Origin: Saccharospirillaceae bacterium
GTDB lineage: Bacteria > Pseudomonadota > Gammaproteobacteria > Pseudomonadales > Natronospirillaceae
Direction of reading: 5' to 3'
Length of the DNA stretch: 64,000 bases
NCBI GenBank assembly: GCA_007116635.1
Contig: SKIB01000074.1
Coordinates: forward strand, 1-64,000
In this document: positions 56,179 through 63,968 of the stretch, in pieces
How positions within the stretch are numbered: position 1 is the first letter of the stretch
Layout: the number at the start of each line of letters is the position of its first letter
The notes under the pieces: generated by a model
Databases searched by the model: none
Seen by the model: the letters and a program-made list of their open reading frames with translations, nothing else
What the model was told of the DNA's origin: nothing
Program-made: the position numbers and the translations under genes

Positions 56179-58848
56179 ATGGGTGAATTAGCCAAAGAAA
56201 TCTTGCCAGTAAACATTGAAGACGAGCTTAAGCAGTCCTACCTTGATTATGCCATGAGCGTGATCGTGGGTCGCGCCTTGCCGGATGTGCGTGACGGTCT
56301 GAAGCCGGTGCATCGTCGTGTACTCTTTGCCATGAGTGAACTGGGCAACGACTGGAACAAGGCCTACAAAAAGTCTGCCCGTGTGGTCGGTGATGTGATC
56401 GGTAAGTATCACCCACATGGTGACTCGGCAGTGTACGACACCATTGTGCGAATGGCTCAGGACTTCGCCATGCGTTATACCCTGGTCGATGGTCAGGGTA
56501 ATTTCGGTTCGATTGATGGTGACCGCGCGGCGGCCATGCGTTACACCGAAGTACGGATGCAGAAAATCTCCCATTCTTTGCTGGCCGATCTGGAAAAAGA
56601 AACTGTTGACTTTGTCGACAACTACGACGGTACGGAAAAGATCCCTGATGTGTTGCCTACCCGAGTACCCAATCTATTGGTAAATGGCTCCTCTGGTATT
56701 GCCGTGGGCATGGCGACCAACATTCCGCCTCATAACCTGACCGAGGTGGTCAATGGTTGTTTAGCCTTTATTGACGACCCTGAGATCGATGTTGATGGTC
56801 TGATGCAACACATTCCGGGTCCAGACTTTCCTACCGCTGGTTTCATTAATGGCCGTAAGGGCATTTTGGATGCCTATCGTACTGGCCGTGGCCGTATCTA
56901 CATGCGTGCCCGCACCCACATGGAAATCAATGATCGCTCCGGTCGTGAAACCATTGTGGTCACTGAGATTCCGTATCAGGTCAACAAGGCCAAACTGATC
57001 GAAAAGATCGCCGATCTGGTGAAAGAAAAGCTGATCGACGGCATTGCTGAATTGCGTGACGAGTCCGATAAAGACGGTTTGCGCATTGCCATTGAGGTTA
57101 AGCGCGGTGAGAACGCCGATGTATTGCTTAACAACCTCTATTCGCAAACGCAAATGGAATCCGTGTTTGGTATCAATGCCGTGGCGCTGGTCGATAACCA
57201 GCCTCGGGTGCTTAACCTGAGGGAGATGATCGAGTACTTCGTGCGTCATCGCCGCGAAGTGGTGACAAGGCGCACCATTTTTGAATTGCGCAAAGCGCGT
57301 GAGCGTGGCCATATTTTGGAAGGCCTGGCCGTGGCTCTGGCCAACATTGACCCCATCATTGAATTGATTAAAAGCTCGACGACCTCAGCAGAAGCCAAAG
57401 AACGTCTGGTGGCCACCTCTTGGGCCTTGGGTGATGTCGCCCAGATGCTGGATCGCGCCGGCGAAGCCGCTTGCCGTCCGGATGATCTGCCGTTGGAACT
57501 CGGGGTGCGTGAAGGGCGCTATTATTTGTCCCCGGTGCAGGCTCAGGCCATTTTGGATCTGCGGTTGCAAAAACTTACCGGTCTTGAGCATGAAAAGCTG
57601 ATCAGCGAATACCAGCAGATTCTGCTCGACATCGGCGAGTTCCTGCGCATTCTGGGCAGCACTGAGCGCCTAATGGAAGTGATCCGTGAAGAGTTGATCG
57701 CCATTCGTGAAGAATTTGGCGACGCTAGACGCACGGAAATCATCGCCAGCCGTCAAGACTTCTCCATTGAAGACCTGATTGACGAGCAAGACATGGTGGT
57801 GACCCTGTCGCACGGTGGCTATGCCAAATCTCAGGTGTTGGCCGACTACGAAGCTCAGCGCCGTGGTGGTCGAGGCAAGTCAGCCACCAGTGTTAAAGAA
57901 GAAGACTTTGTCGAGCATCTGTTGATTGCCTCCAGTCATGATACCCTGCTGTGCTTTACCTCGGACGGCAAGGTGTTCTGGCTCAAGGTGTACGAGATTC
58001 CGATTGCCAGCCGTGCCGCCCGTGGCCGACCCATTGTCAATATTTTGCCTCTGGCCGAGGGTGAGCGCATCACTGCTATGTTGCCGGTGCGTGACTATGA
58101 CGCCAATAAGTTCATCGTCATGACTACTTGCAGTGGCATCATCAAAAAAACCTCGCTCGATGCCTTCTCGCGTCCACGCACCAGCGGTCTAATTGCGCTG
58201 TCCTTGGACGAGGGCGATCACCTAATGGGAGTAGCCATTACCGATGGCCAGCAGGACATCATGCTGGTGGCAGGCAACGGCAAGGTGGTGCGCTTTGCCG
58301 AAGAAAAAGTAAGGCCCATGGGCCGAACCGCTCGTGGCGTGCGAGCCATTAAGTTGGCCGACGACTTCAAGGTAGTGGGTCTGATCATTCCTGCTCAGGG
58401 TGGCACGCTCTTGACCGTGTCGGAAAAGGGTTTTGGCAAGCGCACCGCAGTAGAAGATTTTCCGACCAAGGGGCGTGGTACACAGGGCGTAATTGGCATG
58501 ATTTGCAACGAGCGTAACGGTAGCCTGGTGAGTGCGGTACAGGTGCTGGGTAATGACGAAATCATGTTGATCACTGACCGTGGTACCCTGGTGCGTACTC
58601 GTGTGGCTGAAGTGTCGGTCTTGTCGCGCAACACTCAGGGCGTAATGCTGATCCGCCTGCAAGAGGGTGAGCGTCTGGTGAGTGTCGAGCGCATCGCCGA
58701 GCCCGATGCTGACGCTGAATTGGATGCCGATAAGCTTAGAGGTGAGCCCCTAGCGCCGGCAGCGCGTGCAGAGTCCAGTCCTGATGAGCTGGACTCAGAG
58801 GATGCGGCAGAGGGCGAGCAGGCCGATGGCGATCCAGCTGACAATTAA
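56179..58848 (+). CDS. gyrA: DNA gyrase subunit A
   Basis: 889 residues. Winged-helix/tower breakage-reunion domain with active-site Tyr122 in AAMRYTEVR, quinolone pocket Ser83 and Asp87 in [12 protein letters not shown] (both the wild-type, sensitive residues in E. coli numbering), and a beta-pinwheel C-terminal domain beginning with the GyrA-box QRRGGRG. The acidic tail is long ([20 protein letters not shown]). With GyrB it introduces negative supercoils. serC begins 36 bases after its stop. Confidence 0.98.
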
Positions 58849-59970: not shown

Positions 59971-61074
59971 ATGAGTCAATACGATCAACAGCTGTTGGCC
60001 CTGCGCCAACAAATCGATGGTCTGGATCAGCAGATTGAACAACTGATCAATGACCGTGCCAAGGCCGCACAACAGGTGGCTGAGGTCAAAACTCAGGCCA
60101 GTGCCGAAACCGGTGAAGACCTGGTGTTCTACCGTCCTGAACGCGAGGCCCAGGTGCTCAGTCGTATCATGGAGCGCAACACGGGTCCGCTGTCGAACGA
60201 AGACATGGCCAAGCTGTTCCGCCAGATCATGTCGGCTTGCTTGGCGCTGGAGCAGCCCTTGACCGTGGCCTATTTGGGGCCAGAGGGGACCTTTACCCAG
60301 CAAGCGGTAATTAAGCACTTTGGCCAGTGGGCCAGAACCAAGCCCATGGCCGCCATTGATGAGGTGTTTCGTGAGGTTGAGGCCGGAGCGGTACACTATG
60401 GTGTGGTGCCGGTGGAAAACAGCACCGAGGGCGTAGTTAACCACACCTTGGACAGTTTTCTTAACACTAATTTACACATCTGTGGCGAAGTAGAGCTGCG
60501 CATTCATCATCATTTGATGATTGGCAGCAACACCAGGGCCAACAAGATTTCTCGTATTTATTCGCACCAACAGTCTTTTGCCCAGTGCCGCAAATGGCTG
60601 GATCTGAATTACCCCAATGCCGAGCGAGTACCCGTGGCTTCGAATGCTGAGGCGGCGAAAATGGTACAGTCGGAGTGGAACAGTGCTGCCATTGCTGGCT
60701 ACATGGCTGCTGAGCTGTACGACCTGACATTGATTCACGAGCGCATTGAAGATCGCCCTGATAACAGTACTCGCTTTTTGATTATTTCACGCACACCCGT
60801 GCCGCCCTCTGGGCGTGATAAAAGCTCGATCATCGTTCAGTTGCGCAACGAGCCGGGTGCCCTGTACCACTTGCTCAAGCCCTTTGCTGAACATCAGGTG
60901 GACATGACCCGCTTGGAGACTCGTCCTAGCCCTAATGGCTCTTGGGCCTATGTGTTCTTCATCGACTTTGCTGGTCACTTTAACGACGAGCATGTGCAAG
61001 CCTGTATGGCGGATGTGCGTAAGTTTGCCGTGGCGGTACAGGAGCTGGGTTCATACCCCAAGGCTGTGCTCTAA
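59971..61074 (+). CDS. pheA: chorismate mutase / prephenate dehydratase (P-protein)
   Basis: 367 residues. An N-terminal AroQ chorismate mutase (LRQQIDGLDQQIEQLINDRA, about 8-90), then prephenate dehydratase (TVAYLGPEGTFTQQA, VPVENSTEGVVNHTLD, DNSTRFLII) and a C-terminal ACT domain with NEPGALYHLLKPFAEH and ESRP replaced by LETRPSP. It makes phenylpyruvate and is feedback-inhibited by Phe through the ACT domain. hisC, which sits between pheA and tyrA in pseudomonads, is absent; tyrA/aroA starts 9 bases later. Confidence 0.96.
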   Translation: MSQYDQQLLALRQQIDGLDQQIEQLINDRAKAAQQVAEVKTQASAETGEDLVFYRPEREAQVLSRIMERNTGPLSNEDMAKLFRQIMSACLALEQPLTVAYLGPEGTFTQQAVIKHFGQWARTKPMAAIDEVFREVEAGAVHYGVVPVENSTEGVVNHTLDSFLNTNLHICGEVELRIHHHLMIGSNTRANKISRIYSHQQSFAQCRKWLDLNYPNAERVPVASNAEAAKMVQSEWNSAAIAGYMAAELYDLTLIHERIEDRPDNSTRFLIISRTPVPPSGRDKSSIIVQLRNEPGALYHLLKPFAEHQVDMTRLETRPSPNGSWAYVFFIDFAGHFNDEHVQACMADVRKFAVAVQELGSYPKAVL

Positions 61075-61083
61075 GGGGGTAGG

Positions 61084-63291
61084 ATGAATCGAGCCCCTGT
61101 GGTCTTGGTATTGGGCCTGGGTCTGATTGGTGCCAGTTTTGCCCAGGCCTTAAAGTTGAGTGGTCGGGTCAAGTGGGTTTGGGGCCATGACGCCGACCCT
61201 GAATCCATTGCCATCGCCAAAGAACGGCAGATCATTGATGGCAACATGGCCTTAGAAGACATGGTGCGCCAAGCCGATGTGATTCAGCTGGCGGTGCCGG
61301 TCTTGGCGGTTGGCCCACTCTTGGCGCGTATCCTGCCTCATCTTGGGGCCAAAACCATTCTTACCGATGTGGGATCGGTCAAGGGCCAGTTTGCCCGTCA
61401 GGTGCAGCAGTATTTGCCTGCCGCCCATTGGCCCTGGGTGGTGCCTGGTCATCCCATCGCTGGTGCGGAGCGCTCTGGCGTCACTGCGGCCCAACCCAAG
61501 TTGTTTGTTCGTCATCAGGTCATCCTTACCCCGCTGTCCGAAACCGTGCCTGAGGCCATTCAAACCGTGACCTGGTTATGGCAAGCCTGTGGTGCTCGTG
61601 TCAGTCTGATGGGGGTCGAGCATCACGACCAGGTGTTGGCTGCCACCAGTCATATTCCGCACCTGTTGGCCTTTAATTTGGTCGATAGCCTTGCGCGCTC
61701 CAATGCCAGTACTGACATCTTTGCTCATGCCGCTGGCGGTTTTCGGGATTTTACCCGCATTGCCGCCTCCAATCCGGTGATGTGGCGTGACATTTTTATC
61801 GCCAACAAGGATTCTTGCCTGCAAGTCTTGGATCAATTCAGCCAAGATTTGGCGCAGTTGCGCACTGCCTTGGTTGACCAAGATGGCGAGCAGCTGCAGT
61901 TGGTCTTTGCTCGGGCGCAAACGGCGCGGCAGCATTTCAGTCGTATTCTGGCTCGGCGTCGGCTTAAAGATTCAGCCCCGCTAATGGCCAGCAGGCTGTT
62001 ATTGCAGCCCATTGGCCAATTGGATGGTCAACTCAGTCTGCCGGGTGATGTGTTGCTTAGCCAGCAGTTGTTGATGCTCAGTGCCATGGCCATGGGCAGC
62101 TCACAACTGCACAATCTCAGCGATAATCAAGAAGTGCTGGCTACGCGTCAAGCCTTGCAAGATCTGGGCATCCTGGCCTTGCCGCAAGGGGCGAATACCC
62201 TGGTGGTGCATGGTCAGGGCTGGCATGGTTTTGCCAAGCCCGCAGCGGAGCTTTATTTGTCCGATACCCGTGAAGACCTAGCCATGATGCTGGGCTTATT
62301 GGTGGCTCAGCCCTTCAGTAGCCGAGTTTGTCCGGCGGCTTCAGGGCAGCAAGAGCAGCTGCAGCTATTGGCTGATTTGCAAGCCTTGGGTTGGCCGCTG
62401 CGATGGTCAGAGCAGGGCATTGAGGTTGCAGGGCGTGTGGATGAGCAGGCCTTGACCTGGCCACACGAGGCCGCCAGTGATCTGGTTGAATTGGCGCTGC
62501 TGTTTTTGGCCCTGCAGCTTAGACCGCAGCAATGCCTGCCTTGCGCTAGTCTGCGCAGTAAAATTTGCCTGCAGATGCTGTTGTCCATGGGGATGCCTCT
62601 GACTCTGGCGGCACAGGGTTATCGCTTGCCTGCTGATTTTACTCCGCTAAAGCCGTTGCAACTGGACTTGCCTACCGATGCTTATTTGGCGGGCTTTTAT
62701 CTGTGCTTGGCTTTGGCTAGGGGAGAGAGCCAGCTGTTGCTGCGCCAATTGCCGGACTTTGGTGCCTTGGGCGCTCTGGTAGCTTACCTACTAGGTAACC
62801 AGCAACTGGATCTGCAGCTGGAAGCCATGCCGGGCCACGATCTGATGCCTTTGCAGCAACTGCATCTTAGGTCGGGCAAGGGGTTGCAGGCCTTGGATTT
62901 GAGTGTGGGGCAGCAGCAGGCCATGGATGAAATTCTACCCTTGCTCATGGTGTTGGCGTTGCACTTGCCGCAGGCCAGTCGTTGGCAGGGGGCCAAAGAC
63001 TTACCCCTGCTTTGTCGTGATAGTCTGGATGCTTTGCTGCCCCAATTACATGCCTTGGGTGCTCAGATTTACTATCAGGATCAGGATTTAGTGCTTGAGC
63101 CATCGACGCTTGGTGGCGGCAGTCTTAATGCTCAGGATAACAGCCGCCTGGCTCTGGCCATGCTGCTGGCAGCGGCCTTGGCCAAGCAGCCTATCTGGGT
63201 GGAGTGCGTCGGTGATCTGAGTGGGTTTTATCCCTTATGGCAGCAGCAATTTAGCCAGCTGGGCTGGCATTTTTATGAGGAAGAGCTTTGA
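61084..63291 (+). CDS. tyrA: prephenate dehydrogenase fused to a degenerate EPSP-synthase-like domain
   Basis: 735 residues with an AAGGGGGTAGG ribosome site. Residues 1-295 are a normal TyrA: NAD site GLGLIGAS (11-18), GHPIAGAERSG with His123, EHHDQVLA (179-186) and TSHIPHLLAF. Residues ~300-735 have the length and strand pattern of AroA, which is fused to TyrA in pseudomonads, but key motifs are lost: PGDV (320-323) where PGDK is expected, LSDTREDLA (392-400) for GNAGTAMR, no RPM-type Arg motif, and AKDLPLLCRDS for KESDR. Some traces remain (DEILPLL at 615-621, DNSRLALAM at 685-693). The TyrA half is likely active; the AroA half is probably not. Confidence 0.88.
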   Translation: MNRAPVVLVLGLGLIGASFAQALKLSGRVKWVWGHDADPESIAIAKERQIIDGNMALEDMVRQADVIQLAVPVLAVGPLLARILPHLGAKTILTDVGSVKGQFARQVQQYLPAAHWPWVVPGHPIAGAERSGVTAAQPKLFVRHQVILTPLSETVPEAIQTVTWLWQACGARVSLMGVEHHDQVLAATSHIPHLLAFNLVDSLARSNASTDIFAHAAGGFRDFTRIAASNPVMWRDIFIANKDSCLQVLDQFSQDLAQLRTALVDQDGEQLQLVFARAQTARQHFSRILARRRLKDSAPLMASRLLLQPIGQLDGQLSLPGDVLLSQQLLMLSAMAMGSSQLHNLSDNQEVLATRQALQDLGILALPQGANTLVVHGQGWHGFAKPAAELYLSDTREDLAMMLGLLVAQPFSSRVCPAASGQQEQLQLLADLQALGWPLRWSEQGIEVAGRVDEQALTWPHEAASDLVELALLFLALQLRPQQCLPCASLRSKICLQMLLSMGMPLTLAAQGYRLPADFTPLKPLQLDLPTDAYLAGFYLCLALARGESQLLLRQLPDFGALGALVAYLLGNQQLDLQLEAMPGHDLMPLQQLHLRSGKGLQALDLSVGQQQAMDEILPLLMVLALHLPQASRWQGAKDLPLLCRDSLDALLPQLHALGAQIYYQDQDLVLEPSTLGGGSLNAQDNSRLALAMLLAAALAKQPIWVECVGDLSGFYPLWQQQFSQLGWHFYEEEL

Positions 63292-63968
63292 TGACTCAGG
63301 TTCCAATTTTGACCATTGATGGCCCCAGTGGCGCGGGCAAGGGTACGGTGGCACTGCGTTTGGCTGCCATGACTGGCTGGCAATTGCTGGACTCGGGCGC
63401 TCTGTATCGCTTAACGGCTTTGGCCGCGCACCAGCAGGGGCTAAGCCTTGATGATGAGTCAGCCTTGGCGCACTTGGCGGAACATTTGCCGGTGCGTTTT
63501 GAGCTGGGTGCACAGGGGGCGGAGCCCTTTTTGCAAGATCAGTCGGTGTCGCATCTGATCCGCACCGAAGAAGTGGCGGCCATGGCCTCTAACGTGGCTA
63601 AGTTGCCAGGCGTGCGCCAAGGTTTGTTGGCTCGCCAGCGCGCCTTTGCTCAGCCGCCAGGCTTGGTAGCTGACGGTCGTGACATGGGCACGGTGGTATT
63701 CCCTGAAGCGGATTTGAAAGTGTTTTTAACCGCCAGTGCACAAGAGCGCGCCAACCGCCGGGTACTGCAATTGCAGGCGGCGGGTAAAGAAGCCGATTGG
63801 CAGCAGATCCATCAGCAGGTGGTGGAACGCGATCATCAAGACAGCACCCGAGCCGCGGCGCCACTGAAGCCAGCAGCGGATGCTTTGTTGATTGATAGCA
63901 CGGATTTGAGCATCGATCAGGTAGTGGCGCAGATCTGGCAAGCACTCTGTGCAAAAAAAATGCAATAG
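63291..63968 (+). CDS. cmk: cytidylate kinase
   Basis: 225 residues from ATG 63291, sharing one base with the fusion-gene stop (TGATG) and preceded by AGGAAGAG. P-loop TIDGPSGAGKGTVA, LDSGALYRLTAL (CMP binding), VADGRDMGTVVFPEADLKVFLTA and the ERDHQDSTRAAAPL lid. It phosphorylates CMP and dCMP. The next gene in relatives is rpsA; only 32 bases of intergenic sequence remain here. Confidence 0.97.
   Translation: MTQVPILTIDGPSGAGKGTVALRLAAMTGWQLLDSGALYRLTALAAHQQGLSLDDESALAHLAEHLPVRFELGAQGAEPFLQDQSVSHLIRTEEVAAMASNVAKLPGVRQGLLARQRAFAQPPGLVADGRDMGTVVFPEADLKVFLTASAQERANRRVLQLQAAGKEADWQQIHQQVVERDHQDSTRAAAPLKPAADALLIDSTDLSIDQVVAQIWQALCAKKMQ

Follow-up and report, generated by a model that had tools for sequence, protein, structure and literature searches.

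An unbroken open reading frame at positions 61084–63291 of the 64,000-nucleotide stretch analysed here (hereafter the window) raises the question of why a TyrA protein carries a full-length EPSP-synthase (AroA) domain whose active-site motifs are gone. Our preferred reading, to which we give a probability of about two in three, is that a working TyrA carries a pseudo-EPSP-synthase domain that is kept as a non-catalytic partner of TyrA, most likely as a scaffold.

The fused frame and its active site

The frame comprises 735 codons. Residues 1 to ~292 (61084–61959, forward strand) form a prephenate/arogenate dehydrogenase with intact motifs, including the NAD-binding GxGxxG and the catalytic and dimerisation domain. 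Pfam matches to PDH_N/PDH_C cover residues 19–275 (PF02153 at 19–174, 125 bits; PF20463 at 179–275, 98 bits), identity is 92–100% at positions invariant among intact fusions (0.92 for the invariant polar ones), and the modelled half aligns with 4wji and A. aeolicus TyrA at Z 31–34. A linker (residues 287–301; 61942–61986, forward strand; pLDDT <50 in the AF2 model) leads into a degenerate AroA domain (residues 302–735; 61987–63288, forward strand), in which fold positions are kept. EPSP_synthase (PF00275) matches residues 308–720 above its cut-off (E 1e-13, 51 bits), and a profile of intact fused AroA scores 119.6 bits over profile positions 5–433 of 436 in the annotated frame only. A compensated frameshift was rejected as the cause of motif loss, other frames scoring below 0 against the AroA profile. 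The first-pass annotation had read the second half as EPSP synthase in length and order, and homology over the full domain (~302–735) bears this out. The fused TyrA-AroA model NF011381 spans residues 7–729 at 540 bits, below its cut-off of 902, which places the protein outside that model's membership.

The gene order of the window is gyrA - serC - pheA - tyrA::aroA - cmk, with gyrA (56179–58848, forward strand) as the upstream anchor of the supraoperon, seen also in relatives and used as species marker. We take the upstream neighbour (59971–61074, forward strand; ORF translation) to be pheA, chorismate mutase/prephenate dehydratase, because its sequence is recognisable and its place fits the conserved gene order of the supraoperon. 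That order is given in PMC1173090. The TGA stop codon of the fusion (63289–63291, forward strand) overlaps the start of cmk (TGATG, ATG at 63291), the cytidylate kinase gene at 63291–63968 on the same strand and the same neighbour as in relatives, and tyrA::aroA and cmk are probably translationally coupled, judging from this overlap. In the window no hisC separates pheA from tyrA (61074–61084); in Salinibius this gene lies just upstream of tyrA (L036 398-1498).

At the active site, 16 of the 18 positions examined are substituted. In E. coli numbering, with the canonical fused residue written first, these are K22V, S23L, R27Q, N94D, G96R, T97E, R100A, R124E, A170D, Q171L, D313E, E336D, K340L, E341C, R344S and H385S; S169 and R386 alone still agree with the canonical residues. 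The ligand contacts assigned to these positions follow E. coli EPSP synthase. The individual motif losses named in the first-pass annotation hold up on checking: the Lys of PGDKS is V323, SDTREDLA stands in place of the GNSGTSMR loop, Glu replaces the Arg of KRPM, and the stretch aligned with KESDR reads LCRDS. Its view of the domain as non-catalytic also agrees with the substitutions, from which the domain looks non-catalytic.

The overall fold is predicted to be kept. An AF2 model informed by 23 aligned fused proteins gave an EPSP-synthase fold (pLDDT 83.6) with a disordered linker at 287–301; this model, guided by the mostly intact AroA homologues in its alignment, matched Coxiella AroA across 424 residues (Z 35.7) and also the AroA domain of A. 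baumannii (Z 34.7). Prediction of the domain alone from its single sequence, with no alignment, was unfolded (pLDDT 36) and says nothing either way. Because pTM was 0.66 and the linker is disordered, the model leaves the arrangement of the two halves undefined. The kept fold and the aligned S169 and R386 would suit a fused domain that still acts as an EPSP synthase with unusual residues, but we regard this as very improbable since, among the catalytic and substrate-binding residues K22, R27, R124, D313, K340, E341, R344 and R386, only R386 is aligned, H385 is replaced as well, and a canonical AroA is present in the genome.

The free aroA and the history of the family

Three EPSP-synthase-family genes were found in the genome (2.5 Mb, 97% complete): the fused domain, murA and a free class I aroA at G000:C53, in which all active-site residues match E. 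coli AroA. This canonical gene supplies what the first-pass annotation had expected, an active AroA encoded elsewhere, and rules out that the organism has no other aroA and is an auxotroph. The contig that carries it is 5.8 kb long and its tetranucleotide signature fits the host; contamination was rejected with a tetranucleotide distance of 0.102, within the range of window fragments (0.057–0.171), loci of other species lying at ≥0.26. On this contig lipA neighbours aroA, which it does not do in the other loci that were read. A protein scan of the genome contigs with the window protein alone gave no match.

A free class I aroA is present in all 22 Saccharospirillaceae genomes. By genus (n=10), tyrA is stand-alone in seven (14 genomes), fused to a nearly intact domain in one, and fused to a full-length but decayed domain in two, namely Salinibius and the window's own genus. 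Wherever the strand was shown in the loci read, cmk is also the next gene after stand-alone tyrA. The fused domain of genus g5 (6 genomes) keeps 5–7 of seven core residues, all seven in one genome (G016), compared with 1/7 in both Salinibius and the window. Given the near-canonical site of G016, an intact site was probably present in the ancestor of the family and the loss in the window would have occurred within the family. A gyrA tree (FastTree) places the window and Salinibius as sisters (support 0.99) and requires at least three deletions of the fused domain elsewhere in the family.

Salinibius halmophilus (L094, G007) is the nearest named relative of the window. Its TyrA half is 59% identical to that of the window and its AroA half is likewise decayed; it differs in keeping T97, R100 and R344, and the AroA halves are only 27% identical. 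Between the two, dN is 1.03 for the AroA half versus 0.38 for the TyrA half, with dS saturated.

These observations suggest a sequence of events. An ancestor would have had the usual Pseudomonadales TyrA-AroA fusion, and its lineage would have possessed a free class I aroA of the E. coli type as well; the free gene, we infer, took over EPSP synthesis, after which the catalytic constraint on the fused domain would have lapsed and the active site would have been lost. The fold would have been retained since it matters to TyrA, and the benefit of the retained domain would accordingly go to TyrA. The most likely role is that of a scaffold stabilising TyrA or its oligomer, the TyrA dimer being formed by the helical domain that immediately precedes the linker, and a regulatory role is possible; as the whole pocket is lost in the window, a conserved ligand is unlikely there, and the benefit is probably structural rather than ligand sensing. 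Counting against our preferred reading, the seven genera with stand-alone tyrA indicate that TyrA can manage without the domain.

Selection on the fused domain

The same distribution of stand-alone tyrA, the TGATG overlap with the cmk start and the faster divergence of the AroA half from Salinibius could all be explained if the domain were a useless remnant heading for deletion, whose frame stays open solely because cmk translation would be uncoupled by a premature stop. We consider this improbable, given the pattern of what has been kept. In the window domain, hydrophobicity is 0.86 at the core columns, those invariably hydrophobic in intact AroA, versus 0.31 elsewhere (Fisher 3e-28), whereas a simulation of neutral drift that disallowed stops and ran up to an equal divergence gave a core hydrophobicity of 0.60, with a maximum of 0.72 in 300 runs. 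The simulation thus disfavours a frame kept by cmk coupling alone, and unconstrained drift at 0.25 substitutions per site would yield ~5–9 stops. Gap events between the window domain and its relatives are few (6–10). The polar positions invariant in canonical AroA show an identity of 0.18, which does not exceed the 0.19 of variable positions, and the catalytic constraint is therefore gone in the window.

Selection could be measured directly in family f26, in which dead AroA domains are also found on TyrA. There the dead domain has a median dN/dS of 0.104 over 9 close pairs, compared with 0.044 for the TyrA half, and is under purifying selection, which likewise counts against a passive remnant. 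The first-pass annotation had looked to dN/dS of both halves in close relatives, and this comparison is informative in f26, whereas the genomes compared include one only from the window's own genus and dS between the window and Salinibius is saturated, so that selection on the window branch is read solely from core retention. The claim that the frame is kept under selection gains from both results, and selection at the level of the fold appears to preserve the window domain. At the level of sequence, both genes are present, the active site is lost and the fold is kept beyond neutral expectation; with its activity encoded elsewhere, the domain has the features of a pseudoenzyme domain, the part played by selection resting on core retention for this branch.

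The window and f26 domains decayed independently, and they nonetheless retain the same positions more often than expected, which also speaks against a remnant adrift. Of 178 canonical invariant positions, 50 are kept in the window and 43 in f26, with 27 in common (OR 8.2, p 3e-8; OR 24 for the polar subset). The eight polar residues kept in both (D322, S326, T354, Q409, S465, D532, S549 and D646) are candidates for a role in the fold or an interface.

Other lineages and known systems

An order-level survey of 392 genomes, followed by a closer look at 48, established that the dead-domain state is not unique to the window and recurs in at least three lineages. In genus g35 of f26, TyrA ends in a dead AroA domain of full length in 20/20 sampled species (L022, L078, L080-L084, L086, L087, L089-L092, L174, L176-L181), with a constant protein length of 728–729 aa from a motif-anchored or aligned start in all 20. 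R100, K340, E341 and H385 are lost and a free aroA is present in every one, while K22, S169 and R344 are kept in all 20 and S23 in 18. Compared with the window, f26 offers the better system for dN/dS and biochemistry. Family f38 spans everything between mild decay (G96A, R344P, H385L) and complete decay (0/7), beside members with an intact site; among the latter G114 has a second aroA, and a search for one in G249 and G137 gave no match. The decayed f38 proteins tabulated (L085, L088, L093, L175) keep S23, R27, S169, A170 and Q171, with the PEP side decayed. In genus g54 of family f45 (L182 = G065, L183 = G120) the AroA remnant is shrunken, the whole protein measuring 626–636 aa; these genomes carry a free aroA elsewhere, and the remnant is intermediate between a full-length dead domain and deletion. 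Among the genomes checked for both, a strongly decayed fused domain always came with a free aroA. A free class I aroA and an intact fused AroA occur together in G027 (L252) and G114 (L250), the expected starting state.

The retained contacts raise the alternative that the domain has acquired a new function, as a ligand-binding allosteric sensor for TyrA or as another activity. The shikimate-3-phosphate contacts held in f38 despite PEP-side decay, the residues kept across f26 and the fixed derived residues present in f26 would fit such a role, and the contacts held in f38 make ligand sensing by its domain possible. However, the window pocket is lost with polar conservation at background, and the retained residues differ among lineages, which makes one common ligand unlikely; as an account of the window domain we therefore find a new function quite unlikely. 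A broader scenario, in which several gammaproteobacterial lineages independently turned the fused EPSP-synthase domain into an allosteric or assembly module of TyrA and part of f38 keeps a flux-sensing shikimate-3-phosphate pocket, is speculative and on balance rather unlikely; if true, the f38 pocket would sense flux upstream of chorismate.

Our preferred reading of a non-catalytic partner of TyrA, in keeping with the regulatory or structural partner that the first-pass annotation put forward, can be placed beside known systems. The pseudomonad TyrA-AroA (tyrA-aroF) fusion NF011381 resembles the window in domain order, length, the serC-pheA-tyrA::aroA-cmk neighbourhood and the homology of both halves, but its active site is intact at all columns in 78 of 80 named members sampled (mostly Pseudomonas and Marinobacter) and lost in the window. 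The earlier statement that pseudomonad fusions carry a working AroA is in line with this count, as far as intact sites indicate activity. The two exceptions are the decayed Salinibius and P. graminis (L125:3001-5202), in which three active-site columns are changed, including R124H, perhaps an early stage of decay.

In P. syringae, a loss of ~200 residues from the fused AroF (= EPSP synthase) domain was coupled to the gain of a free aroF, and the authors suggested that a leftover of this kind might turn into a regulatory domain (Song et al. 2005; PMC1173090). There too a fused EPSP-synthase domain is disabled and a free gene is present, but the ~200 residues are deleted, whereas the window domain keeps its full length, has changed by point mutation and is apparently subject to selection on its fold. 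In Candida albicans Aro1, the DHQase domain is inactive, mediates homodimerisation and is backed up by the free Dqd1, and species without Dqd1 keep this domain active (PMC9074039). The likeness to the window lies in a shikimate-pathway fusion with one domain dead by active-site substitutions, a separate enzyme and a retained domain; the difference lies in another enzyme step, another fold and a eukaryotic host. Searches of the open-access literature yielded no description of a TyrA that carries a dead AroA domain at full length. With full-length examples under purifying selection, the 2005 idea that a disused AroF fusion domain becomes a regulatory module is now testable. Among relatives the domain is found intact, half-decayed, dead but folded, shrunken or deleted, and nature has thereby run a replicated experiment on the fate of one half of a fused enzyme once a free copy makes that half redundant.
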